This document shows, in pieces, positions 27,112-46,230 of a DNA stretch of 64,000 nt. Under the pieces are notes generated by a model that searched no databases, was not told the DNA's origin, and was given only the letters and a program-made list of their open reading frames with translations. The stretch covers positions 11,559,453 through 11,623,452 of the forward strand of contig NC_087084.1 in the NCBI RefSeq assembly GCF_026151205.1, written 5' to 3'. How positions within the stretch are numbered: the stretch's first letter is position 1; each line of letters opens with the position of its first letter. Source of the DNA: Bolinopsis microptera (Eukaryota; Ctenophora; Tentaculata; Lobata; Bolinopsidae). Made by a program: the position numbers and the translations under genes.

Positions 27112-27921
27112 ATGGGTCTAACTTTCCTGATTATCCTTTGGATTGCTCTGAATTATTCCGTTGCAGCGGGTATGTTTAAAGACACATAATGTATAGTATA
27201 ACAATTAGTCTGTCAAATTAGTCTGTATTGTATGAACTTCTTGTGGAAAGAAAGTTCACACTATTTTGAAAACTTTATAACTAATGGACATTCTTTTACA
27301 GGTGCTCTATCCAACTGCGCAGTGAAACAACTTGGGTGTTGGGCTGACAAATCAAGCAGGGCTATAGTTGGTGGGGTCAGATTCATATCTGACTATCCTA
27401 TTAAGGATTGTCAGAAATATGCAGCTGACAGAAAATGGACTATATTTGCAATCCAATACAGCAATGAGTGTTTTACCGCTGCTAATGCAGGAGACACATA
27501 CTGGAAATATGGTGCTTCACTTGCATGTAGTACAAATGGAAGGGGCGGAACGTGGGCTCAAAATGTTTACAGCATATCCTGTAACACAGACAACGAGAGA
27601 AAAGTGTTTCCAACCGCAGCGATAGTGATATTAGCGATAATGGGGATTGTTTTTATCTGCTTTGTAGCCTATCGGATATACAGAACAAGGCAGTCACCAA
27701 ATAAACTGCTCATTACATCAGATTGTACGGACTATGTTGTGATTGTTAATGAACAAAACGTGCCAATTGACCCATCGGAAGACCCACACATGACCACACC
27801 AGGAACACCACCAAGGATTGCATTTAAAAATGCACTATTTACTGCAATGAGAATTACATCAGACTCAATCAAAACTAAAATTGTTGAAAAAATTAGATCC
27901 CTAGCTATGGAGAGACAATAG
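27112..27921 (+). CDS. Type I membrane protein with WSC-like ectodomain, 225 aa
   Basis: Exon 1 (27112-27169) encodes a signal peptide beginning MGLTFLIILWIALNYSV. A phase-1 intron (GTATGT...TTTTACAG) leads to exon 2 (27302-27921). The ectodomain (about residues 21-120) has LGCWADKSSRAI, spaced Cys residues, FAIQYSNECF, then KYGASLACS and GGTWAQNVYSI. This order is characteristic of WSC-like, carbohydrate-binding-type domains of invertebrate surface proteins. One membrane helix (AAIVILAIMGIVFICFVAY, about 133-151) is followed by a cytoplasmic tail of about 75 residues with several Ser/Thr and basic positions. Likely role: cell-surface recognition of a glycan or protein ligand (inference). The gene lies 0.5 kb upstream of the ANKAR-like gene, same strand. 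Confidence 0.8.
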
Positions 27922-32902: not shown

Positions 32903-33175
32903 CCCGTGTAACATCACGTGTAACATCACGGTAACATCACGTGTAACTGTTTAACATCACGTGTAACATCACGTGTAACATCACGGTAACATCACGTGTA
33001 ACTGTTAAACATCACGTGTAACATCACGTGTAACATCACGGTAACATCACGTGTAACATCACGGTAACATCACGTGTAACATCACGTGTAACTGTTTAAC
33101 ATCACGTGTAACATCACGCGTAACATCACGTGTAACATCACGTGTAACATCACGTGTAACATCACGGTAACAAAG
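32903..33175. repeat. 12-bp minisatellite (TAACATCACGTG)n
   Basis: About 20 units of TAACATCACGTG with shortened TAACATCACGG variants and interspersed TAACTGTTTAACATCACG, giving a higher-order pattern of about 80 bp. Every full unit has an E-box CACGTG. On the minus strand the array overlaps the stop codon of the arylsulfatase gene. Confidence 0.93.
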
Positions 33176-35877
33176 TATCATACCGATAAGCTGAAGACGG
33201 CAGGAAATCCCTACTAAAGTCCCACGGAAGATAATAAGGCACACTATCAGTAGGATAACTACCATCAATAGTAGGCAGCTGGCATGTGAGCGGGTTCTGA
33301 TGGGACAGATAATCAGCTATATCACCTGCTAGCTCTGCAACTACATCAGGGTGGGTGTGTGCTATGTTATTCACCTCGTTAGGGTCCTCGAATATATCAA
33401 ATAGCTGTATAATGGTGAAGTCTATAGAGGAAATGTTGAGAGGGTAGAACTTATAGAGACTGCACGCCGCACTGCTCTGCTGCGGTCCTACCAGCAGTTT
33501 ATACTCCTGTTTTAAATACCCGGCTACCCTCTTAACCGGGTCAATATGCAACATGATCTGAGTACGGGGACACACCATATCTGTGTTATCAAACAACAGG
33601 TAGTCAGACTGGTCCACACTGTCCAACTCCGCAGGCATTTCCAGCCCTGTTGCCTCGGTGTACGCGTCCCAGCCCCCTGAGACAGCTATGAGGGTGTGGT
33701 ACCAGTCCGACACGTGCACGTAGCAGTCAGTAGAGCCCCGGTGTTGGAGGATCTCCTCGTTTTCACTGTAGAGGAAACCAACTGTGCGGACCCCGCCCTC
33801 CCACAGGTGGGATTTGGAACCTTTGAGGGGGCCGTTTGAGGTGTACTTGCTTTTTGGGGCTCCGTTATCTGGGGGTTGGTGTTGGTAACAGATGTGGGTT
33901 TTTTGGAATCTTTGAAAATAATGCAAAATGTCGTAAGAAAATTAATAACTGAAGATCATACTCTGTCCTTCTGCTATAAACTATCTACTCGCTCCTTTTA
34001 CCTATCTACTCACCAGAGTGATAAACAAGCAGAGTATTCTCCCACATTCCTGCATCCTTCAAATACTGAATAAAATCAGTTAACAACTCCTCCGCTGCCT
34101 TTAACATAGCCTGCATTGTACAGCGCGGAGAGTCCGTGCAGTCGAAAAACCTGATAATAATATGTGTTTACATGTTTTGTAGTGTGATGTGTCTAACTGA
34201 GCACTATCCTAACTATGGAATCCCTGAGAAGGGGGGGGGGGGGGGGGGGGTTTGATGACGTTATCAGGGGGGTGTGATGACGTCATCATAACAGTCTTTA
34301 ATAGCATTCTCTTCTTAACTAACTTCTTGGGTGCATAGTAGTCCGAGTGTACGGATTGCATGGGAAGGTAAAGGAAAAGGGGCTGGTCAGGGTCATGTTC
34401 CTGCACGATGTGCCTCACTCGTTTGTTATAGAGGTAGAGCGAGTAGATACCCTTATCTTCTGTCAGTATGTCCCAGTTTAGACCCTCCTCATCACTGTAT
34501 GAACACTCGTAGAAGTCGTAGTAACCACTGATCATGTGACTATTATATCCGATCTCTCCGTTTACGTAGCCGTATGCGGTGTCGAAGCCGCGCATGCACG
34601 GGAAACAGGACCAGCGGGCGTACCCCAAGTGCCATTTGCCGACCAAGTGGGTGGCGTAGCCGTTGTGGCGGATAACTTCAGGGAGGAGGAGCTCCTTTTC
34701 GTTTAGACATTCCTCTGTGTGGGGTGAGAATATGTCGTGCTGGATACCTGGTATAGTGGGAGTATTAATTAAATCTAGGTTCTTAATAATGTGTTAATGT
34801 ATAAGATTATTTGGATACTTCGATGGTTTCCTATCGTTATCAATATCTTTAAACCTTATTCATTTTGTGCTGAACTCAAATTCTAGATGATGGGTTCAGC
34901 ATTAGGTTAATAAGTTCAAATTTAATAAAACGTTAAACTAAAAATTTAATAAAACGTTAACTAAAAATGTAATATAACAACAGCTGTTTTACCTAGAGTT
35001 ATAGGGTATTTACCAGTCATGATACTGGCACGTGTAGGAGTACACATCCAAGCTGAGTAGTGTCTGTTCATTATCAACCCTGACAGAGGAAATTTATTAT
35101 TCATTGCGGTTATTATTTAAGCTTGACATTATCTGTATCATGCCTTTTAGTTTTGTCTCATTAAAATTAAAATTATTTGGCTTGTGTTCTCTACAATAGT
35201 TCTGGATACTAGAAGGGAGGTAAACCATATTTGCTTTGACACGTGACATTGATTCTGGGTTTTTATGGTCAATACTGGAAACTGACTGATCAATCACTGT
35301 CAGAGTGTCACGTGACAAACATAGTTCACCTCTCAACAACCAGTAATATTCAGATTTACAACACATCCAACAAAACATGTCCTGAGCTTGTCTGCATATA
35401 ATGGTGCCGCAAGTGCCACATGTTTGATGTTAGTGCCGCAAGTGCCACATGTTAGAGCCGCAAGTGCCATATGTACATGTTAGTGCCGCAAGTGCCACAT
35501 GTAAGTGCCGAAAGTACCACATGTTAGTGCCACAAGTGCCACATGTTAGTGCCACAAGTGTCGCATCATGTTAGAGCCGCAAAAGCCGCAGTGCTGCATT
35601 TACGTAATAAGGTTGGCTAACCTTTAGAAGCGAGACCATCCAACACGGGCGTTTTAATATCTGCCAGGTCAGGGTAGGTGTACCCCACATCCCCGTACCC
35701 CTGATCATCCATAACCACGTACAGAATGTGTGGTTTCTTCGCTGCTTTCTCTAACCATGGGAGGTATTCGTTCAGAGCGTCTAGCCATGAGGCATCTGCT
35801 TTCTTTGCTTTTGTCAGTGATGTTATTGTAAGTGTTAGGAGTAAGGCAAGGATGCAGTTTATTGTTCTGTTCATCAC
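33162..35877 (-). CDS. Secreted/lysosomal arylsulfatase, 529 aa, five exons
   Basis: Exons in transcript order: 35877-35622, 35079-35014, 34747-34324, 34150-34014, 33868-33162, phases continuous. It removes sulfate from sulfated sugars or aryl esters. The signal peptide is about residues 1-24. [14 protein letters not shown] supplies the paired metal-binding Asp. Exon 2 has CTPTR, the Cys being the residue converted to formylglycine (usual form C-x-P-S-R). GKWHLG and the SDNG metal site with SHLWEGG follow. Length and motifs fit the arylsulfatase B/I/J group. The second Met (35874) is an alternative start. Exon 3 most likely ends at a GTTAGT donor (34323), which keeps phase. The gene lies wholly in the intron after exon 11 of the ANKAR-like gene on the opposite strand, and its stop lies in a minisatellite. 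Confidence 0.88.
34231..34251. repeat. Poly-G tract
   Basis: About 20 consecutive G on the plus strand (poly-C in the transcript) within an intron of the arylsulfatase gene, flanked by TGATGACG(T/C) sequence. Likely length-variable. Confidence 0.9.
35237..35320. repeat. Second CACGTGAC hairpin, same family as 10498-10568
   Basis: TTTGACACGTGACA near 35237 is mirrored by TGTCACGTGACAAA near 35307, with about 55 bp between. The left end continues with TTCTGGGTTTTTATGG, which resembles the inner part of the copy at 10498. It lies in intron 1 of the arylsulfatase gene. Confidence 0.55.
35402..35590. repeat. About 22-bp tandem repeat (GTTAGTGCCGCAAGTGCCACAT)n
   Basis: Around eight imperfect units built on TGCCGCAAGTGCCACATGT in the first intron of the arylsulfatase gene, close to exon 1. 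Simple minisatellite, no coding role seen. Confidence 0.85.
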
Positions 35878-35879
35878 CA

Positions 35880-36478
35880 GTCTTTAGCTAGGTCCCCTGC
35901 AGGACCTTGAGGTGCTTCTTCCTTAAACCAATTGTTTAAAAACTTTTTAACACATGTGCTAGGAATGCTCGATGGAATGTAGAACTGAAAATACTATTTT
36001 CAAAATAGAACTGAAGGAAGGAAGGGCTTGCACTGCAATTAAAAGATTGTAATAGTGTTTCAGCTTGCTAGGCTCACATTGTCTATTATAGCTTTATAGT
36101 GTTTGCGGATTTATGTGGGAAACAGTATAACTTATATGATGCGTCATCATAACATCATATTTACTTCATGTCTCATTATCATCAATTATATTTTAAATTA
36201 TATAATTCCCCATTGCTATGATCAAAGTAAATATCTTGAATGAATATTTACTAGCGAACTACTAACCAGGTGTTTGACTCCTTGACCCTTGTGCACCAAC
36301 GTCCCTCGGGTTTGACATGAACCACAAACCTCTAACTGCCCGATACAGGGTCTTGGAGATAAACATATTTAATCTAATAATTTATAGTATAAATACAATC
36401 TAGTGTTTAAATTTATACATAATACCATGTTAGTATATTGCACACATAATTCACCAGTTTAAATATTATCACTTTCAG
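35880..36478. other. Space between arylsulfatase start and ANKAR-like exon 12
   Basis: This should contain the promoter of the minus-strand arylsulfatase and the 3' part of the host intron. No clear promoter element, repeat or exon could be recognised. Confidence 0.45.
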
Positions 36479-38255
36479 AGGTGGACGTAGATGGTAAAAC
36501 CTACGCCATGATAGCAATCGAGCTGGAGAAACTCTACATTCAAACACCTAAATCCCCGCGATGGTAAGTCGTGTAAACTAGTGTGATGTCATTATTTATA
36601 ATTGTTGTAACAGTATTGCAGGTACCGTGATCAGCTAAGTGCTGATGATTATTGTGATGCCAAAGTTTTATAATGGTAAAAACTAAAATTTTTCCGTTGG
36701 CATATTATTTGATAAATTGATAAAAAGTCTTCACCATTTCTATGGTATCGCCAATATTTGTAATGACATCATCACACCTCCATGATGACGTCATCACACC
36801 TTCATGATGACGTCATCACACCTCCATGATGGCGTCATCACACCACTCCGTTGCAGGTTACATCAGATAATAGACGGGGCTTCGCAGACTAAGAAGAGAG
36901 TGTTCCCAGTAAGTGAGACAAGACTTGTGGAACAGTTCAACAGACGCTTTGGGAATGTGAGTAACATTCTTAAACTAACATTCTTAAACTAAAATTGTTC
37001 ACTAACAGTATAATATTTTCTTCATGATTTGTCAGTAAAAATAAAATGCGCAAGTTGTAAAAATGTCTAAAAAAATGTCTATACAATGTTCGCAATAATA
37101 AAACTTAAAAGTCTTAATATTGAGTATTTAATCTTGATAAATGTACAAACAAAAATCAAAAATGAACGATCTCCTCAAAATATCTCCCACTTTCAGCCCC
37201 AGAAAGTATCAACCTCACACCTAATGGTTGCAATACATCTGGGTCGTTCTGCAGTGTTCCAGCAGACAATGACGAAGAGCACAAAGACACGACTTAGTAA
37301 ATGTGACGAGAAGAAGATGTCTATGATGCACTACGCTGCTATGAACGACTATCATAATCTCATTTGTAAGTTGTTTAGTATTTAATTAAGATTAAATCAG
37401 TTGAAAGGCCCCGAAATGATAAATGAAAATTTACTCTCTATATCATTATATTATGAGTATTCTTATGTGGCCCAACTGTGTCAAAAGTAAACATTCAAAC
37501 ATTTAACAAAATATATATAAAAGTTTCAATGATTGATCTCAGTTTCTGTAATGTTCTCGTAACAATCCCCGCACTCCCAGGTGACATGGTGCGCACGTGG
37601 GGGTGTGACGTGAACGTGCGGTGGGAGAGTGATGACCGGACCACATTCGGTCCTGCACCGCTCCACACTGCTGTACGACACGGGGCTATTGAATGTGTGT
37701 ACTGTCTGTTGAGCTACCACGCTGATCTCAACCTGGTAGGGAGATGTGGTTTAGGAGTCTTGTATTTATTGTAGAAGAGTTTTTATATAGATCGGAGTTA
37801 TTGCCCGCTTCTTTTAAAATAAGAATCATACTGTTTTTTCGAAATTATATTTAATAGCTAAACATTTTCAAATAATAATAATATAGTACTGTAATCTCAC
37901 AAGCATCACAAGTTATCTGATAGCTATTGCTTTAAATTACTAATCACTTTTAATTGCTAACCAACATTATTAAACATTACCATAACCTTTAGTTACCAAT
38001 TAGTTACTAATTTCTTTTAATGACTTAATTGCTAACCAACATTATTAAACATTACCATAACCTTTAGTTACCAATTAGTTACTAATTGCTTTTAATTACT
38101 TAATTACTAACCAACATTATTAAACATTACCTGTCAGGTAGATGATAAAGGTTGGTTACCTATCCACACAGCAGCCTACTACAACCAGCATCTCATCGTG
38201 GACATGTTACTCAGCAGGAAACCTAAACTTATTGACAAGCCGTCTTCTAATAGTG
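36479..38255 (+). CDS. ANKAR: ANKAR-like protein, exons 12-16 (ankyrin repeats)
   Basis: Second block of the long gene. Exons: 36479-36563, 36857-36956, 37197-37365, 37581-37735, 38138-38255; phases continue those of exon 11. Ankyrin repeats are visible as MMHYAAMNDYHNLI in exon 14, APLHTAVRHGAIECVYCLLSYHADLNL in exon 15 and LPIHTAAYYNQHLIVDMLLS in exon 16. They have the TPLH-A-A...V..LL pattern of helix-turn-helix units for protein binding. Exon 16 ends in phase 1 (donor GTGAGT at 38256), but the next exon I can identify, at 48738, begins in phase 0. An unrecognised small exon probably lies in between, within a 10.5-kb intron that hosts the sushi-domain gene. Confidence 0.78.
36764..36843. 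repeat. About 23-bp tandem repeat with TGACGTCA palindromes
   Basis: Three to four units of CCATGATGACGTCATCACACC just upstream of exon 13. Each intact unit contains TGACGTCA, the cAMP-response-element core. Related GATGACGTCATCA sequence also occurs near 34279 in the arylsulfatase intron. Confidence 0.85.
37960..38135. repeat. About 76-bp tandem repeat upstream of exon 16
   Basis: Two and a half copies of a unit containing CATAACCTTTAGTTACCAAT followed by TAGTTACTAATT and ACCAACATTATTAAACATTA. The last copy runs into the 3' splice site region of exon 16. Confidence 0.85.
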
Positions 38256-38324: not shown

Positions 38325-38782
38325 GATGTAAGTTAATGTAAAGCTGATTTGGTTATTCTTTAATTTATGATTAAATCATGGATGGTGTTTATGCGATGGC
38401 TTCAATCGCACTGTTAATTAAATCGTACGTTGTGTCTCTAACCCTGAAAAGTAGAAAGATTAAAAAGAGTGTTGCAATCTCATAATGCTAGTCTCATTTT
38501 GAAATTACTACATATGACAATTTATTAGAGTCATAGACATAGTAAGTTTTTTTGTTACTTTATAGTTATACTCTTTTCATTAAAATTGTAAAACACTGAC
38601 CTGAATGGAAGTACATATTTTAAAGATTTAAACTATTCTCAGTCTTTGTGCACAGATAACGCGACAATCATGTCTTATAAGACTAATAAGTGCCCCAGCA
38701 GCCTATAGCCTTATAAGTCATTATTGCTATGACGTTATCAATCAAGCCTATTAGATAACCCTATATAAAACACCTACATTAA

Positions 38783-41700
38783 TTATATATATATTTTGCA
38801 CGCACCTATTTTCTTACAGTGGGGCTTGTCACCTTCCCAACTACCATCTGATTTACACGTCATAGCAGTCTTAGAACCAATCAAAAGGAAGCGTCTTGAG
38901 CACGTGATTGTTGCTACTAAACCCTCTTCTACAGTTCCACTTGGTGAGATGTTTGCGTTCAGGACCGTCAATTGTGGACAGAACCCCGCTGCAGAGGGAT
39001 TATTTAGACTCCTTGATTATTGTTTAAAAAACCTTAATCATTTGGCTTGGTCAGAGTTTTGTCGGCATGATACCGAAAAAACCAGTCCCATAACTCTAAC
39101 CGTTTTCTTGATTAAGCCGCTCGGAAATTACACGCGAACGAACAAACACACATCTCGAGATTATTATAAGGATATTACCATGATATGGACTGTTAACCAA
39201 TCAAACTTATGGTTTCTTAGTGCTATCTGACTTTTTGAGAAGAATTTGCTAAGATGAATGGCTCTCTGGATTCTTATCTCTGAATTCTACTCGTCCCCTC
39301 TCTCTAGGTAACTAATAACTATACCTAATTAGTAATTTCAAAAATGGGAAAATCATTTCTGTACTATCATACCTCTTGAATCCTAATTTCTAAAATCAAA
39401 TGTTAGACTTACCACAAGCAGTTTTCTCTTCGTTTGCTGTTCCAGGAAGGCAAGATGTACAGGAACCAGCATTACCGGTACTGTAGGTCTCACCTTCACA
39501 TTGTTGACAGATATCTATATCGTCAGAGCGGTACTTTCCCGCTGGGCAGGCACCTGAAATTATTGCTCTTGTCAATACTGCACAGTAATATTTATACTTT
39601 TTAACCAGGAATAAAGAATCCAAATATTTCTTAGTATAATTTCAAATTTTCAATATCGTTTCTGGCCTGTTATCAGGCAGACATGATAAAATATACTAAC
39701 TGCACAGAGGCTCTGCAGAGAAGGTAAATATCTGGAACTGATCACAGGTCACTTTTTTATCCCCACTCCGTTCATATCCAGGCTCACATCTGATAATCAG
39801 GGTTGCTCCTTTAGTTATTGGGAATACAGATTCTGGTGTGGGAACCATGTTGGTGGTGCTCCATGTTGGAGTAACGCCATCACAAACCGCAGCTAGAACA
39901 AATAGGAAATTAGAAGAAACAAATAATTCATTATTCAGTCTTGTTAAAGGTGAAACTTGCGATCAAATAGGTATTGACTGCGACTGCTTGGAAGCAAGTT
40001 CAGGATTTAGGTCTTGAAGAAAAGCTTTTAATCCCTCAACTTGTGTCCCGGTTTTAACTCTAAACACTTACTACACTGCGGAGGATCATTTTCGTAGGTG
40101 AACTCTGTGTTCATCTCACACGTGACCGTCGTATCACCACTCATCTGATATCCCCTCTCGCATTTTAGGTCCAGGACTGTTCCTTTAAAAACTGGCAGCT
40201 TCTTTCCCGCAGGTACTAACATGTTCCTCCAAGTTTGCTTGAAGTTATGGCACTGTTCAACTGAAGAGGAATGATATGTTAAAGTGTAAATTTGTGAGGA
40301 ATAATTACTATGGACTTCCCATAGTAAAAGTACTTAAAATAATCAAATTATGTTTAATATTACTTAGAGTAAGTCTGCTAATGAGTCTACCGAAACTCCG
40401 ATAAAACTAATTTAGAATTTTCAAAAGAGAAAAAATATATTTAAAGATACGAACGTACCACACAGTGGTTCTACTACAGCAGTAAACTCAGTATCTGTTA
40501 CACATGTAACTGTATCATCTCCCTTTAGTCCATACCCCTGCTCACAGCTGAGACTCAACTCTGTTCCTTGTATCACAGGAAACATTGTTGTTGTTATCAT
40601 GTTGGTCCATGTTGCTTTAAAGCCGGTGCACTGTTCTGAAAGTTACATTTTATTTGGTAATGATGGTAAATTTTAAAGATATATCTGGAAAAATCATCAA
40701 ATTCAAAGAAAATCAACTATGTTAAGGTAAAATAGTGACTCATTCAAATGATTCAAATAATTTTATTCCCTATCACTAAAACGTTTAGGTTTCACAAGAC
40801 TAGTGTTAGCTGCATTATTTCATTAAAATATCAATAAAACTTACTCTCGCTAGTAGTACACGTAGGCTCACTGGAAAATGCGCATTCTGAAACTGTTTTC
40901 TTCTGTTAGTTTTCATCTGAATTATACTCTAGCCCAGAGATATCAATAACATATACATTTAAATCTGTTAATAGTTCAAAGTAACATTTTTTGAGATTTA
41001 CTCGTTTGATTCATTGTCGTAAAAGTTAAATTATTTAACAAATTTCAATAAGTTTTGTAAGGCATCTGACATGCAAATATTAATTAATTATCAGCAATTA
41101 TTAAACACGCACCTTGAGCCGGCAAGAAGAAGTCAGACGCTGTGTCAGAAATGAACTTTATTCTTTTTATATCTTTACCCCAATAGTTCTTCCAGTTTGC
41201 CTTGTGACTAGAACATATGGAGTCTGACAGCTGGAGGTGTAGAATCTCCGTGTTGTCGCAGTGAATAATCACTCGGACAGGTTGTGAGAGTTTGGTTATT
41301 TTCCAAACCCTATCGTCATTATCACTCGCTGGGAGGCTGACAGGAAATTCTTCAGCGGAATTGCGACAAAACCTAATGTAATACTTTGGTACCGTGGCCA
41401 GATGAATGGAGATGCGTCCTATCTGTTTGGAATCAAAGGAGAAAGTTTGGAAATAGACTGCATGCCTACTTCCTATTGCACTGTCAGTCTTAATTCTGAG
41501 AGGAGAGTTTTCTAGGTCGTACTCAATTAATTTGTTCTTTTCCACTGTTTGCCAGTCTGAAATAAAATTTTGTTACACTTAGCTTTTAGTCTTTTTTGTT
41601 TTTTGACTGGACATAACATCATCTAACTGAAGATTCGTGGAGCATGCTAGGTAAGTTGTTTTTGTGAAACTATGGCAAAAGGTTTGCACAAGACGTGTTC

Positions 41701-44700
41701 ATGTAATGCCGTATTGAAACTTTAAAATTTCGCCATAGAATGCGAATGTTGAATACTCAGTACTGCATACTCACAACATGTAGGTTCCAATGAAAATGTG
41801 TACTCAGTGTCTTTAACACAGATCACTGTCTTATCCCCCTCTATCTCCTCTCCTCCTCTACAACTCAGTGTTAGCACTGTTCCTTCAACAATAGGGAAAT
41901 CCTGGTCTGACAGCACGTTATTCCAGTTTGCGTTGAGACCAGTGCACTCTGTGAATTAATCAAATTGAATTTTGATGCTCCGATAAGTAAAATTTGACCG
42001 ACAGAAATGTTTAGATGTGTACGTGTAGACCTAGTACATAAGTTTAGCCAATACCCAGGTGACAAATTAAATAATTTGTCAGCCATAATATGTACAAGAT
42101 ATCCAACCATTGATAATAAATATTTCATTATTCACCTGGGGGATGCTGATAGAAGTCAGATGCTGTGTCTCCGTGGAAATTTATCTTCTTCATCTCTTTA
42201 TCCCAGTAAGTCATCCAGCTGGTGCTGTGACTTGTACATGTTTCTTCTGAGAACTTGAAGTTTAGGATTTCCTTGTCGTTGCAATCAATAGTTATTCCGA
42301 TAGGATTAGAAGTTTTGGTTATTCTCCAGACCCTGTTATCGTCTTCTGGGAGGCTGGTAGTGAGTTCTGTCCAGGAGGTGCGACAGTTATCGATGGAATA
42401 CCTTGGTTTGGTCATCAGATGAATTTGGATTCGGCCTGCTGATAACTGATCGCCCGAAGAGTAAACGTAAACCGCGATTCGATTTTTAGATCCTATTGAA
42501 CTGTCAGTTTTGATTCTTAGAGGAAAATTTTCTAGATCGTAATCGATCTTTGTGTTGGTAGACACCACTGGTTTCCAATCTGAAATAGTTGAGTGTTGAC
42601 ATGATAAAGTAATTACTTTTATGACTGTTTACAATGTAATGACTGTATTCTCTTAATATGACACGTATAAAGGAGTTGCAGCCTTGATTGACCAGTTACA
42701 ACTACGGATATTAAGGGTACAAAACCCGGTGTCCATGAAAACACCTCCATCTAACACATCTCGGACTATATAACAATCAAAAAGCTGGAAATACTCCAAT
42801 CTAGCGTAAAAGTACTTTTCAGCACAGCAAAAGCTTTTATCTCTCTAATTTATTTAATTTCGCTACTCACAGCATGTAGGTTCCTCAGTATACTGGTACT
42901 CAGTGTCTTTAACACAGATCACTGTTTTATCCCCCTCTATCTCCTCTCCTCCTCTACAACTCAGTGTTAGCACTGTTCCTTCAACAATGGGGAAATCCTG
43001 GTCTGACAGCACGTTGTACCAGTTTGCGTCGAGACCAGTGCACTCTGTGAATGAATTATTTTTACAGCCACTCTGTTTAATTGGGAAAACTCTCTTTCTG
43101 CATTATTCGATCTTAGCATCCACACATAAATTAAATAATTTACAGCCTTATTAATTGAAAAACGTAAAACAAACTTGATAACTTGGATCATTTTGGTCAT
43201 ATAATGTGGCTCGTGGTTCACATGTCAGGCTAATCATCACATATAATAATAATATGGTGCAAAGATAGCCAACCGTATAATGTAAATATTTTATTATTAA
43301 TATTAACCTGGTGGATGCTGATAGAAGTCAGATGCTGTGTCTCCTTGGAAATTTATCTTCTTCATTTCTTTACCCCAGAAATTCATCCAATTATTTGTAT
43401 GACTTGTACATGTTGTCTCTGAAAACTGGATGTTCAGAATTTCTGTGTTGTTGCAGTGAATTGTTAGCCCAACTGGTTGCGAGGTTTTGGTTATTTTCCA
43501 ATCTCTATTATTGTTTTCTGGGAGGTTTGGAGGAAATTCTGTCCAGGATTGACGGCAATTTTTGATCCAATATTGGGGTTTGGCATTCAGTCGAATCTGG
43601 ATTTGTCCTAAAATTCCAGCACTTGAGGAGTAGAGCGAGACAATCATGTTCTTCCTACTTCCTATTGAACTGACAGTTTTTATTCTCAGAGGAGAGTTTT
43701 CAAAGTCGTAATCGATCTTTACGTTGGCGCGTACTGGTATCCAGTCTGGAAAAATTTAGTTTATATCACGTCATAGCTTTTGTAAATCTAATTTCTCTGG
43801 TTTTCATCTCATGATGCCATGTTAAATTATAGTTATTGGTTCACAATTATTAATTCATATGACAATTTGAAATTTTCAAATTTCACTACTCACAACATGT
43901 AGGTTCCTCTGTATACTGGTACTCAGTGTCTTTAACACAGATCACTGTCTTGTCCCCCTTTATCTCCTCTCCTCCTCTACAACTCAGTGTTAGCACTGTT
44001 CCTTCAACAATAGGGAAATCCTGGTCTGACAGCACGTTATTCCAGTTTGCGTTGAGACCAGTGCACTCTGTGAAATTGAAAAGCGTAAAACAACGTTGAT
44101 AACTTTCATCATTTTGGTTATACTTATAGGTGGCTCCGTGATTCAGACGAGCAGATGGCAGGCTAAGCATAAATGGTGCAAAAGGTAGCCAACCTTATAA
44201 TATAAAGCTGAGTAAGTATATCGATTCATTATCGCTATGTATCATTTAATTTTAGAAGTATGAAGACCTTAATATAGTCTTCCGTAAGGGCTGAAATCAC
44301 CTTCGGATTGCAGGTTGCATGTCTAGGTTTTTTCTGTTATGTCGAGGGGGAAAAGGTGCAGGAGACCACCTACTTCACGATGGCATCTGATACAATACAA
44401 TACAATATAACGATTTCATTATTAACCTGGTGGATGCTGATAGAAGTCAGATGCAGTGTCTCCGGAGAAATGTATCTTCTTCATCTCTTTACCCCAGAAA
44501 TTCATCCAGGTATTTCTATGAGTTGTACATGTTGTCTCTGAAAACTGGATGTTCAGAATTTCCGTGTTGTTGCACTGGACAGTTATCCCAGCTGGTTGCG
44601 AAGTTTTGGTTAAAGTCCAAACCTTGTTATCGTCTGCTGGAAGGGTAGTAGTGAATTTTGTCCAGGATTGTTGGCATTTCCCGATGTAATACTTTGGTTC

Positions 44701-46230
44701 GTTCAGCAGATGAATTGCGATTTGTCCTAAGTTATTACCACTTGAGGCATAAAACCAGACATACACTTTATCGTTGCTTCCTATTAAACTGTCCGTTTTT
44801 ATTCTCAGAGGAGAGTTTTCAAAGTCGTAATCGATCTTCACGTTGACGCGTACTGGTAGCCAGTCTGGAAAAATTTAGTTTAACACGTCATAGCTTTTGT
44901 AAATCTAATTTCTCTGGTTTTATCTCATGACGCCATGTTAAATAGTTATTGGTTCACAATTATTAATTCATATGACAATATGAAATTTTCAAATTTCACT
45001 ACTCACAACATGTAGGTTCCTCAGTATACTGGTACTCAGTGTCTTTAACACAGATCACTGTTTTATCCCCCTCTATCTCCTCTCCTCCTCTACAACTCAG
45101 TGTCAGCACTGTTCCTTCAACAATGGAGAAATCCTGGTCTAACAGCACGTTGTACCAATTTGCGTTGAGGCCAGTGCACTCTGTGGATGAATTATTTTTA
45201 CAGCCACTCCGTTTAATTGGGAAAATTCTCTTTCTGCATTATTCGATCTTAGCATCCACACATAAATTAAATAATTTACAGCCTTATTCATTGATGAAAA
45301 TATTGCCAAGAATTTACCTGTCGGATGATAGTAGTAGTCGTATTCTCTGAAATAGGAGTTGAACTGTATTTTCTTAGCCTTTCTGCTCCAGATCTCACTC
45401 CATTTGTTTTGGTTGGTGCAGATGGTGTCAGACAGCTGGATCTTCAATATCTCATGTTCGTTACAGTGGACGATCATTCCTGGTTCCGGGGTCTTTGTTA
45501 TCTTCCAGATTTTCCTGCCGTCTGCTAGAAGATTTGAGGGGAGGCTTGTGGGAGCGTCAGTATAAGAATTGTCGCAATCAGTTAGGTAGTACTTCAGAGT
45601 GGTGTCCAGCTTAATTCTGAGTCCTCCTGCTGCTTGGTTGTTCAGTGCAAAGAAAGTTAACTTCACTTCATCTCCACTTTCAAAGGGACTGTCTGTCCTG
45701 ATCTTTAGTGGGGAGTTTTGTAGATCGTAGTCAATCTTCCCAGTTTTCATCTCTCTCCAGTCTGTAAATTTGGATCTTAAGATATGATCGTACTATCATG
45801 AAAGGCACAGCAAAATATTTTGTATCAACATAGAGTCACACAAAGTTTCAACGCTGTCATGAGCCAAGGTCAAAAGGAAATCGCGGCACGTGCAGAATCG
45901 CGATTTTCCCATTCTCCGTGTCAAATCGTGATTTTTGACGTTTGCCGCGACAAATCGCGATTTTCTCAGATCCTCGCGACAAATCGCTATTTTTCGCAAT
46001 AAATTATGCATTTTTCTTGTTGCGGCGCCTCGATTTTTGGCCTAAGTAATCGTGATTTTCTTTTGTCCTTTAAAAAGTTCATGCTAGCATATAAATCTCT
46101 GTCAAAAAAGTGATTCATGCTAGCAGTGACGATCAAACGACTTTTATTATAAGATTCTACCTGGTTCTGCAGCAGAAGTTCCACTGAATAACAGCATCAC
46201 AAACATGAACTTGAAAAAGCTCTTCACCAT
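38783..46230 (-). CDS. Secreted mosaic protein: five copies of a novel-looking domain alternating with sushi (CCP) domains, 1306 aa, 16 exons
   Basis: Exons in transcript order: 46230-46161 (signal peptide MVKSFFKFMFVMLLFSGTSA), 45761-45318 (D1), 45180-45007 (CCP), 44864-44427 (D2), 44067-43894 (CCP), 43745-43308 (D3), 43044-42871 (CCP), 42579-42136 (D4), 41948-41775 (CCP), 41556-41113 (D5), 40886-40845 (14-residue remnant), 40635-40459 (CCP), 40260-40072 (CCP), 39892-39701 (CCP), 39553-39413 (ephrin-receptor-like Cys module), 38988-38783 (CCP, stop). Every intron is phase 1. CCPs show four Cys, for instance LTLSCRGGEEIEGDKTVIC. The D domain (about 146 aa) runs from KIDYDLENSPLRIKTD through W-I-TKTSQP and CNNTEILNIQFS to DTASDFYQHPPG; I do not recognise it with certainty. 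No membrane anchor, so probably extracellular, adhesive or immune-like (inference). It is nested in the ANKAR-like gene. Confidence 0.82.
43050..45300. repeat. Duplicated intron segments inside the sushi-domain gene
   Basis: Intron sequence next to the CCP exon at 43044 (about 43050-43150) recurs next to the CCP exon at 45180 (about 45185-45290), sharing GAATTATTTTTACAGCCACT and CGATCTTAGCATCCACACAT. The stretch after D2 and D3 (CTAATTTCTCTGGTTTT, TATTGGTTCACAATTATTAA) is also shared between about 43790-43880 and 44890-44990. Conserved introns mean exon-pair duplications are recent, or are kept similar by gene conversion. Confidence 0.8.
45880..46080. repeat. Repeats of AATCGCGATTTTC in intron 1 of the sushi-domain gene
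   Basis: Five to six imperfect copies of (A)AATCG(C/T)GATTTT spaced 25-60 bp, several around the palindrome ATCGCGAT, with GACAAATCGC between. The pattern resembles a short satellite or MITE remnant. It lies between the signal-peptide exon and D1. Confidence 0.65.

Follow-up and report, generated by a model that had tools for sequence, protein, structure and literature searches.

A sixteen-exon mosaic gene on the minus strand

The window analysed here, a stretch of 64,000 nucleotides from the genome of the ctenophore Bolinopsis microptera (contig NC_087084.1), encodes a gene of 16 exons on its minus strand, from 46230 to 38783. In this model, built from DNA alone, the exons join into an open frame of 1306 codons ending in TAA. 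All 15 introns have GT-AG borders and each splits a codon after its first base (phase 1). The gene is a mosaic of symmetrical 1-1 exons with every junction in phase 1, as an earlier note on this DNA had described it. Its modules are a signal peptide, four pairs of a domain here called D and a CCP (Sushi) domain, a fifth D, a putative CCP relic of 14 codons, three full CCPs, an exon of GCC2/ephrin-receptor-like type and a last CCP. The D exons measure 438-444 nt (146-148 codons), in agreement with the domain of about 146 residues, repeated five times and paired with CCPs, that had been noted before. An independent repeat search also recovered the D and CCP direct repeats in the window. The features are as follows.

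46161..46230, minus strand: exon 1, start codon and signal peptide MVKSFFKFMFVMLLFSGTSAAEP (joined frame, hydropathy)
45318..45761, minus strand: exon 2, D1 (joined frame, D alignment)
45007..45180, minus strand: exon 3, CCP 1 (16.4 bits alone, below the Sushi cut-off of 20.7)
44427..44864, minus strand: exon 4, D2 (joined frame, D alignment; second fold model)
43894..44067, minus strand: exon 5, CCP 2 (joined frame)
43308..43745, minus strand: exon 6, D3 (joined frame, D alignment; first fold model)
42871..43044, minus strand: exon 7, CCP 3 (joined frame)
42136..42579, minus strand: exon 8, D4 (joined frame, D alignment)
41775..41948, minus strand: exon 9, CCP 4 (joined frame)
41113..41556, minus strand: exon 10, D5 (joined frame, D alignment)
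40845..40886, minus strand: exon 11, 42-nt micro-exon of phase 1-1, putative CCP C-terminal remnant (CAFSSEPTC)
40459..40635, minus strand: exon 12, CCP 5 (24.2 bits alone, above the Sushi cut-off)
40072..40260, minus strand: exon 13, CCP 6 (joined frame)
39701..39892, minus strand: exon 14, CCP 7 (joined frame)
39413..39553, minus strand: exon 15, cysteine-rich GCC2_GCC3 / ephrin-receptor-like module
38783..38988, minus strand: exon 16, last CCP (best Sushi stretch 1242-1296) with a short tail and the stop
38521..38526, minus strand: AATAAA polyadenylation-like signal
37457-37774, plus strand: ankyrin ORF, opposite in strand to the gene

The CCPs belong to the Sushi/CCP family (PF00084). The whole protein scored 87.9 bits against a cut-off of 20.7, four stretches passed an E-value of 1 alone, and the four cysteines are present. 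Exon 11, read by eye from the sequence, resembles the end of CCP 4 (DTEYTFSLEPTC). An exon paralogous to exon 15 matched Ephrin_rec_like at an E-value of 0.0002, slightly below the cut-off. Hydropathy along the 1306-residue model peaks in the signal peptide of exon 1, and no other hydrophobic segment was found in the model; the protein is probably secreted. None of the 62 genomic matches to 7tm_2 (E up to 0.01) fell in the window. The gene thus appears to have no GPS-7TM region downstream of its ectodomain, though a 3′ exon may have been missed: since donor-like GTs are present inside exon 16, an additional exon may follow it. An end of the gene near 38783 fits the stop codon, the AATAAA at 38526 and the ankyrin ORF on the opposite strand.

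Sequence and predicted fold of the D domain

The alignment of D1-D5 contains 35 invariant columns, and D1 is the most divergent copy (39% identity to D3). Among the motifs quoted for D in the earlier note, CNNTEIL is exact in D2 and D3 and DTASDFYQ in D2-D4. Both are inexact elsewhere, and W-I-TKT-QP is degenerate in several copies.

Profile searches of Pfam and of PDB sequences gave no credible family match, and D accordingly keeps the unassigned status that it had been given. When 58 of the 59 listed D domains were scanned singly, 12 Pfam families were matched by any of them at E up to 0.1, and the best match (E 0.00047) was below the cut-off of its family. Identity with a known Pfam domain was rejected for these 58 and for the D domains of the window. 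A search of PDB sequences with a profile of the five D domains found at best a DBF4 chain (E 0.019), which was absent with the profile of 58. A resemblance to the farnesoic-acid-methyltransferase-like domain (PF12248), which is beta-rich and similar in size to D, had been suggested. It was abandoned: PF12248 matched neither D3, D5 nor the whole protein (E up to 1), nor any of the 58 members (E up to 0.1), and the predicted fold is of galectin type. A genome-wide search with the PF12248 profile (140 positions) was silent everywhere, controls included, and hence carries little weight. The first Ig-like domain of Pom152 (PF24519) reached 42.7 bits when summed over the whole protein, against a cut-off of 27. 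This candidate was rejected because single domains scored under the curated cut-off (D3 20.7 and D2 21.2 bits); 2 of the 58 members matched it at all. A prokaryotic import was also rejected, as the 42 pattern matches among genome contigs included no relatives. No description of D or its family was found in the literature searched, which left subscription papers mostly outside, or in passages of ctenophore papers.

Structure prediction, a check that the earlier note had called for, pointed to a galectin-type jelly roll, seen in predicted models only. The AlphaFold models of D3 (the first) and D2 (the second) had pLDDT values of 84.6 and 76.9. The other models of the first run had values of 26-58, and the prediction was made from five sequences. 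Galectins were the top structural comparison for both D models, at Z of 11-12 over about 126 residues (Z 11.2, rmsd 3.1 Å, and Z 11.8, 3.0 Å; 126 residues each), among the families that Foldseek ranked. Foldseek was run with the first model, and its listed rows had TM-scores of 0.40-0.57, normalised to the query; for the second model, VIA-align was the only comparison. Among the 50 Foldseek rows, two entries for PL7 alginate lyase stood beside galectins. The predicted strand order lets the variable strands E3-E5 of D match S3-S5 of galectins, which belong to the sugar-binding sheet.

However, D was rejected as a true galectin. Galectins carry the carbohydrate signature H-x-N-x-R ... W-x-x-E-x-R, and neither H-x-N-x-R nor W-x-x-E/Q-x-R was found in D1-D5, the five copies scanned. 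PF00337 was not among the 12 Pfam families matched by the 58 D domains at E up to 0.1. An hhalign comparison of the D alignment (102 of its 115 rows) with ten galectin domains from this genome gave a probability of 0.1, and none of the 47 PF00337 places lay within 600 nt of the 177 places of D in the genome. D further differs from galectins in that it follows a signal peptide and has been shuffled, as an exon, together with CCPs.

A genome-wide family with variable sites and adhesion GPCR members

D belongs to a large family, which the earlier note missed because it lies outside the window. All 150 scored places of a genome search with D3 matched, 145 of them stop-free. A divergent D as query added 27 places, none with a stop, for a union of 177 places (172 stop-free). 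The 145 copies form 120 clusters, which are scattered across 13 chromosomes and a single small contig. Two of the 115 profile matches started beyond column 3; a splice acceptor in the phase-1 register was found at 102 of the remaining 113, against 0-1 at four shifted registers. Chance is excluded for D, because the exon type recurs genome-wide with this acceptor. A phase-1 GT was present at 112 of the 113, a weak test because GT is common. Elsewhere in the genome, too, D is followed by CCP or GCC exons in the same orientation. At two loci of subfamily B, which look secreted, homology stops right behind the CCP, save for a single match of 90 nt. Some family members apparently are short, secreted D-D-CCP proteins. 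Near-identical flanks of D exons had prompted the suspicion of a mobile exon. A transposon-borne exon was rejected: homology at the compared loci extends to the CCP and GCC exons as well as to further parts of the gene, so that dispersed gene duplication is simpler.

Some members are adhesion GPCR genes. A D gene on chromosome C5 matched GPS (7e-9) and 7tm_2 (8e-11) in Pfam, with a weak HRM below cut-off, and D genes on chromosomes C4 and C8 are 98-99% identical to its GPS-7tm_2 region. In these three paralogues, read from DNA, GPS and 7tm_2 lie in one frame behind D-CCP-GCC exons. At the amino acid level the GPS-7TM exon is 96-97% identical, the CCP 93-98% and D 67-84%, and pN exceeded pS in all seven D pairs. 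Among 44 7tm_2 places (from the 62 matches, with extra fragments near a listed match omitted), nine are preceded within 15 kb by a D of the same orientation. With the strands flipped the count was 0, and 500 random rotations gave a mean of 0.22 and a maximum of 2. The nine D-linked places compare with 120 D clusters.

In subfamily A (56 copies, one with a stop removed), median pairwise identity was 0.92-0.93 in the splice-adjacent intron flanks, against 0.82 (nucleotide) and 0.69 (amino acid) in the exon. In 59% of pairs the upstream flank was more similar than the exon, and in 84% the downstream flank was. In a separate comparison of 400-nt flanks, the ten pairs of 55 with more than 75% upstream identity and more than 300 aligned columns were used. 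In these ten, upstream flank similarity was equal to or above exon similarity, and identity in the first 400 nt downstream was 46-63%. Exon pS (0.155) was roughly double the divergence of the flanks (0.07-0.08), and conversion or a faster rate in the exon may therefore have acted.

Amino acid diversification above the synonymous rate was found at putative recognition sites in the young subfamilies. With a looser rule that admitted 57 A copies, pN/pS was 1.61 (codon bootstrap 1.35-2.05) at sites taken from other subfamilies and 0.83 at the remaining sites. In 12 B copies, it was 2.31 (1.72-3.53) at sites taken from A and 0.84 at the rest. Maximum likelihood omega in subfamily A was 3.01 at sites from other subfamilies and 1.13 elsewhere. 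The top 28 variable sites of A and B coincide at 20 positions, against 5.6 expected. Variability alternates along columns 29-67 (lag-1 -0.45, lag-2 0.28), and the same alternating beta-strand positions vary across the young subfamilies. Over all codons of subfamily A, the pN/pS bootstrap interval spans 1 (0.98-1.50; second computation 0.92-1.42). Targeted mutagenesis was not supported; positions 1 and 2 of variable codons carry all four bases, adenine most often (420 and 586 of 1243). Amino acid change was not in excess in the window gene, where D1-D5 gave pN/pS values of 0.49 overall, 0.80 at variable sites and 0.40 elsewhere. We read this gene as an old family member under purifying selection.

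A candidate recognition repertoire and its alternatives

Because D has many copies and hypervariable positions, and is carried partly on near-identical cell-surface receptors, we favour its reading as an undescribed recognition repertoire. D is probably the ligand-binding jelly roll of a large germline family, with the window gene as a secreted multivalent member. Alternate residues of E3-E5, the following loop and E9, probably one face of a beta-sheet, would vary under diversifying selection and bind ligand, while strands E6-E8 and the exon borders would stay nearly constant. The CCP and GCC modules would form a stalk. In the adhesion GPCR members, near-identical GPS-7TM units would bear different D domains, whereas other members would be short secreted D-D-CCP proteins. 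The five D domains of the window protein, spaced by CCPs, would probably bind glycans or proteins by avidity. Of the earlier suggestion of a recognition or complement-like protein, the recognition part is strengthened by the paralogues, and the complement-like part finds no support beyond the CCPs. An immune, allorecognition or other self/non-self role of the family may be suspected.

Snail FREPs, amphioxus VCBPs, sea-urchin 185/333 and Hydractinia Alr are diversified recognition families of invertebrates, and the D family resembles them in being large, germline-encoded and built around a hypervariable domain of presumed recognition function. In contrast to them, the 58 D domains matched no fibrinogen, LRR or Ig-like Pfam family (apart from PF24519, in 2 of 58 and below cut-off), the membrane partner is an adhesion GPCR, and the copies lie far apart, on 13 chromosomes and a small contig. 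At least three D genes share the GPS-7TM exon of adhesion GPCRs, with an unnamed hypervariable domain as the distal domain; the window gene differs from adhesion GPCRs, having no 7tm_2 in the window.

An ordinary mosaic of extracellular matrix or mucus, with D as a structural adhesion module copied by unequal crossing-over and varying under relaxed constraint, seems improbable. Matrix proteins often contain CCP and GCC modules, the window copies of D are under purifying selection (pN/pS 0.49), and the D-CCP units resemble tandem duplicates with partly homogenised introns (98% identity over 142 nt between the c1-D2 and c2-D3 introns). However, relaxed constraint would not make pN exceed pS at sites shared by independent subfamilies, and it is at odds with the alternation along strands, the 145 of 150 open frames and the constant 7TM beside a variable D. 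It is similarly unlikely that the model fuses a D-CCP gene with a downstream CCP-GCC-CCP gene. The model was drawn from genomic DNA, and at two subfamily B loci a D-CCP gene seems to stop after one CCP, but every junction keeps one phase and one open frame, and D likewise precedes same-strand CCP or GCC exons elsewhere in the genome. Nor is a second signal peptide evident, because mean hydropathy stays at or below 1.07 in all 19-residue windows beyond the N-terminus.

A chemosensory or prey-recognition repertoire without an immune role is rather doubtful, though less so than these two, and it overlaps the recognition reading, which leaves the use of D open. The linkage of D to adhesion GPCRs speaks for it. 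In Mnemiopsis, ctenophore-radiated GPCR clades are among the copy-number outliers and lie in selected regions, which the authors read as sensory (PMC13231562); this would be a parallel if those GPCRs carry D. Against it, most D clusters have no 7TM detected within 15 kb downstream, and the two subfamily B loci look secreted.

A more specific form of the recognition reading, which we put forward tentatively, is that this ctenophore evolved a variable/constant system of its own. In it, hypervariable galectin-fold D domains, in well over a hundred germline versions, would sit on near-constant adhesion GPCRs and, together with soluble proteins of one or several domains such as the pentavalent window protein, would serve non-self recognition or individuality. 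The ctenophore lineage is frequently regarded as the sister group of the remaining animals. If the proposal is true, a deep-branching animal has a germline hypervariable receptor repertoire that is invisible to domain-based annotation, since none of the family libraries searched here contains its variable domain. Known Pfam domains were the starting point of a recent survey of immune receptors in ctenophores (PMC11797021). Mounted on a constant adhesion GPCR, a variable domain would tie anticipatory recognition to G-protein signalling, and the discrimination of self from non-self, microbe or prey by ctenophores would become testable through one domain.

Architecture of the D-bearing gene

Rebuilt from splice signals and reading frame, the minus-strand gene comprises sixteen exons from an ATG at 46230 to a TAA at 38783 (1306 codons), with introns that are all GT-AG and all in phase 1. 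The sixteen-exon, phase-1-only mosaic described in the earlier note is thus borne out.

Window gene and its neighbours
46230-38783, minus, 5′ part: signal peptide; D1-CCP1; D2-CCP2; D3-CCP3; D4-CCP4; D5
46230-38783, minus, 3′ part: 14-codon exon; CCP5-7; GCC2/ephrin-receptor-like exon (GCC); last CCP and short tail
34209-34793, minus: sulfatase gene piece (PF00884, 3.2e-12)
33162-33941 and 35617-35883, minus: ORFs that look like sulfatase parts by eye, with no Pfam match
37457-37774, plus: ankyrin-repeat ORF (PF00023, 6.5e-5), a short way beyond the 3′ end of the D gene, in the opposite orientation
27202-27921, plus: ORF with a weakly scoring WSC domain (2.6e-5, below cut-off); transmembrane segment and tail by eye
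37950-38099: AT-rich tandem repeat, two 75-nt copies, 97% identical

The sulfatase pieces together span 33162-35883 on the minus strand. In the window protein, the sushi (CCP) modules score above the Pfam cut-off, and the 14-codon exon after D5 resembles the end of a CCP that has otherwise been lost. Since no strongly hydrophobic segment follows the signal peptide in the 1306-codon model, we infer that the product is secreted. CCP1-4 are 88-95% identical in pairs, D2-D4 only 61-69%, and the introns preceding D2 (44865-45006) and D3 (43746-43893) are 98% identical over 142 nt beside differing D exons, a sign of local homogenisation. By these identities, the D-CCP units are duplicates that have been partly homogenised, D having diverged further than CCP.

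Pfam contains no credible match for D, in agreement with its earlier description as an unassigned domain. PF24519 (Pom152 Ig-like) exceeded the cut-off only when summed across repeats, single D copies remaining below it, and was matched at all by two of 58 family members. Neither a family name for D nor an account of its repertoire was found in the literature searched.

A dispersed family with adhesion-GPCR members

The distribution of D was searched in its own genome and a prokaryote collection. The assembly has 264.65 Mb in 232 contigs, thirteen of which (C1-C13) are 15-26 Mb long; a passage of PMC11797021 describes 13 chromosomes for three ctenophores, and a table there lists the Bolinopsis microptera genome at 265 Mb and 346 scaffolds. 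D3 as query gave roughly 431 first-look candidates; all 150 that were scored matched (E 7e-14 or better), 145 of them without stops. With a divergent D as query all 150 scored places also matched, including 27 new ones, all stop-free, so that the union of both searches amounts to at least 177 places. The 145 copies outside the window in the D3 search form 120 clusters, spread over each of the thirteen large contigs plus a small one.

From 94 fetched stretches and the window's five copies, 115 D domains were sampled. Of 113 copies examined, 102 have a splice acceptor in the phase-1 register, against 0-1 in shifted registers; a phase-1 GT after the exon, which is a weak criterion, is present in 112. 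Same-strand neighbours in 14 long (10 kb) stretches included CCP in eight and a GCC exon in five. In one fetched stretch (L013:4287-5159) two D domains lie in a single unbroken frame of 463 codons, with no intron separating them; in another, a reverse-transcriptase-like ORF (by eye, L010:55-1041) adjoins a D locus. The acceptor flank of subfamily A, the largest young group of D copies, has 49 exact matches, of which four had no adjoining listed D (C1:73580, C1:1855242, C3:7312916 and C3:7328533); these four are probably further D exons outside the scored lists, or broken ones.

On C5, one locus carries D-D-CCP-D-CCP-GCC ahead of a 761-codon frame that contains GPS, 7tm_2 and a weakly matching HRM. 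Its GPS-7TM region found 14 places in the genome at E 1e-8 or better; one on C4 and one on C8 were 98-99% identical to it over 217 residues, and the 15 kb upstream of each of the next-best two (71% and 61%) contained no listed D. Among C4, C5 and C8, the whole GPS-7TM exon is 96-97% identical (pN 0.012-0.018, pS 0.021-0.049) and CCP pairs 93-98%, and D pairs are 67-84% identical, with pN of 0.089-0.184 exceeding pS in all seven pairs. Of 44 7tm_2 places, nine had a D no more than 15 kb upstream in the same orientation; flipping the strands gave none, and rotations averaged 0.22. Three loci with D and 7tm_2 on C11 (17328370, 17376369 and 20769721) have equal D scores and nearly equal 7tm_2 scores and represent a recent triplication. 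At two loci of subfamily B, homology stops just past one CCP save for one 90-nt match, consistent with short secreted proteins.

Hypervariable sites and predicted fold of D

In subfamily A (55 copies), adjoining intron sequence is more constant than the D exon: median pairwise identity is 0.918 in the upstream flank (62 nt) and 0.932 in the downstream flank (55 nt), against 0.823 for exon nucleotides and 0.688 for amino acids. The exon was less similar than the upstream flank in 59% of pairs and than the downstream flank in 84%. All 56 exons have lengths divisible by three. Variation is concentrated in 23 columns above 2 bits, several with at least 12 kinds of residue. At some variable codons the third base is almost fixed (53 of 55 copies at one such column, 50 of 55 at a second); at others it varies. 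Variable sites alternate along strands (lag-1 -0.45, lag-2 0.28; difference reached by 7 of 2000 permutations).

Circularity was avoided by testing A at sites taken from other subfamilies, and B and C at sites taken from A. At these sites pN/pS (codon-bootstrap range) was 1.61 (1.35-2.05) in A (57 copies), 2.31 (1.72-3.53) in B (12 copies) and 1.99 (1.17-3.81) in C (5 copies), against 0.83, 0.84 and 1.04 at the rest. With all codons of A pooled, the bootstrap interval includes 1. A maximum-likelihood codon model (fixed tree, kappa fixed at 1, recombination ignored) gave A an omega of 3.01 at independent sites and 1.13 elsewhere; the value of 17 for B is not independent, because B helped define the sites. 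D1-D5 of the window tend to vary at matching sites (Spearman 0.53 with A), and their pN/pS of 0.49 overall and 0.80 at variable sites indicates purifying selection. The diversification claim therefore concerns the D family, and the gene in the window belongs to its older, settled members.

AlphaFold models of the five window D domains gave pLDDT 84.6 and pTM 0.81 with D3 first, and 76.9 and 0.73 with D2 first, with the same ten strands within one residue. A pLDDT above 80 was reached by a single model out of five in the first run and by no model of the second, so confidence in the predicted fold is moderate. Galectins ranked top in Foldseek for the first model (E 3.5e-4; query-length TM-scores 0.40-0.57 among the matches listed) and in VIA-align for both (Z 11.2 for the first and 11.8 for the second, each across 126 residues). 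Membership of D in the galectins themselves was ruled out by motif and profile; the genome's own galectins (47 PF00337 places) are separate from D. The variable sites mainly occupy every other residue in strands E3 (32-38), E4 (44-51) and E5 (57-61), the loop after E5, and E9 (129-133); additional ones lie close to residues 5-9 and in the loop at about 111-117. By strand order, the predicted E3-E5 would correspond to galectin S3-S5, which belong to the sugar-binding sheet.

Proposed recognition by D

We infer that D binds a ligand, possibly with a preference for glycans, and that specificity resides in its variable residues; the CCP and GCC exons would act as spacers and stiffeners, membrane forms would signal via the adhesion GPCR, and any immune role is likewise putative. 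The GPCR data agree just as well with chemosensory or prey recognition, and a passage of PMC13231562 interprets GPCR copy-number change in Mnemiopsis as sensory. On the reading of D as a ligand-binding module, putatively secreted forms such as the five-D protein of the window would bind through avidity. Germline-diversified recognition families are a known kind of system; what appears to be new here is domain D, its predicted galectin-type scaffold and its candidate adhesion-GPCR partner.
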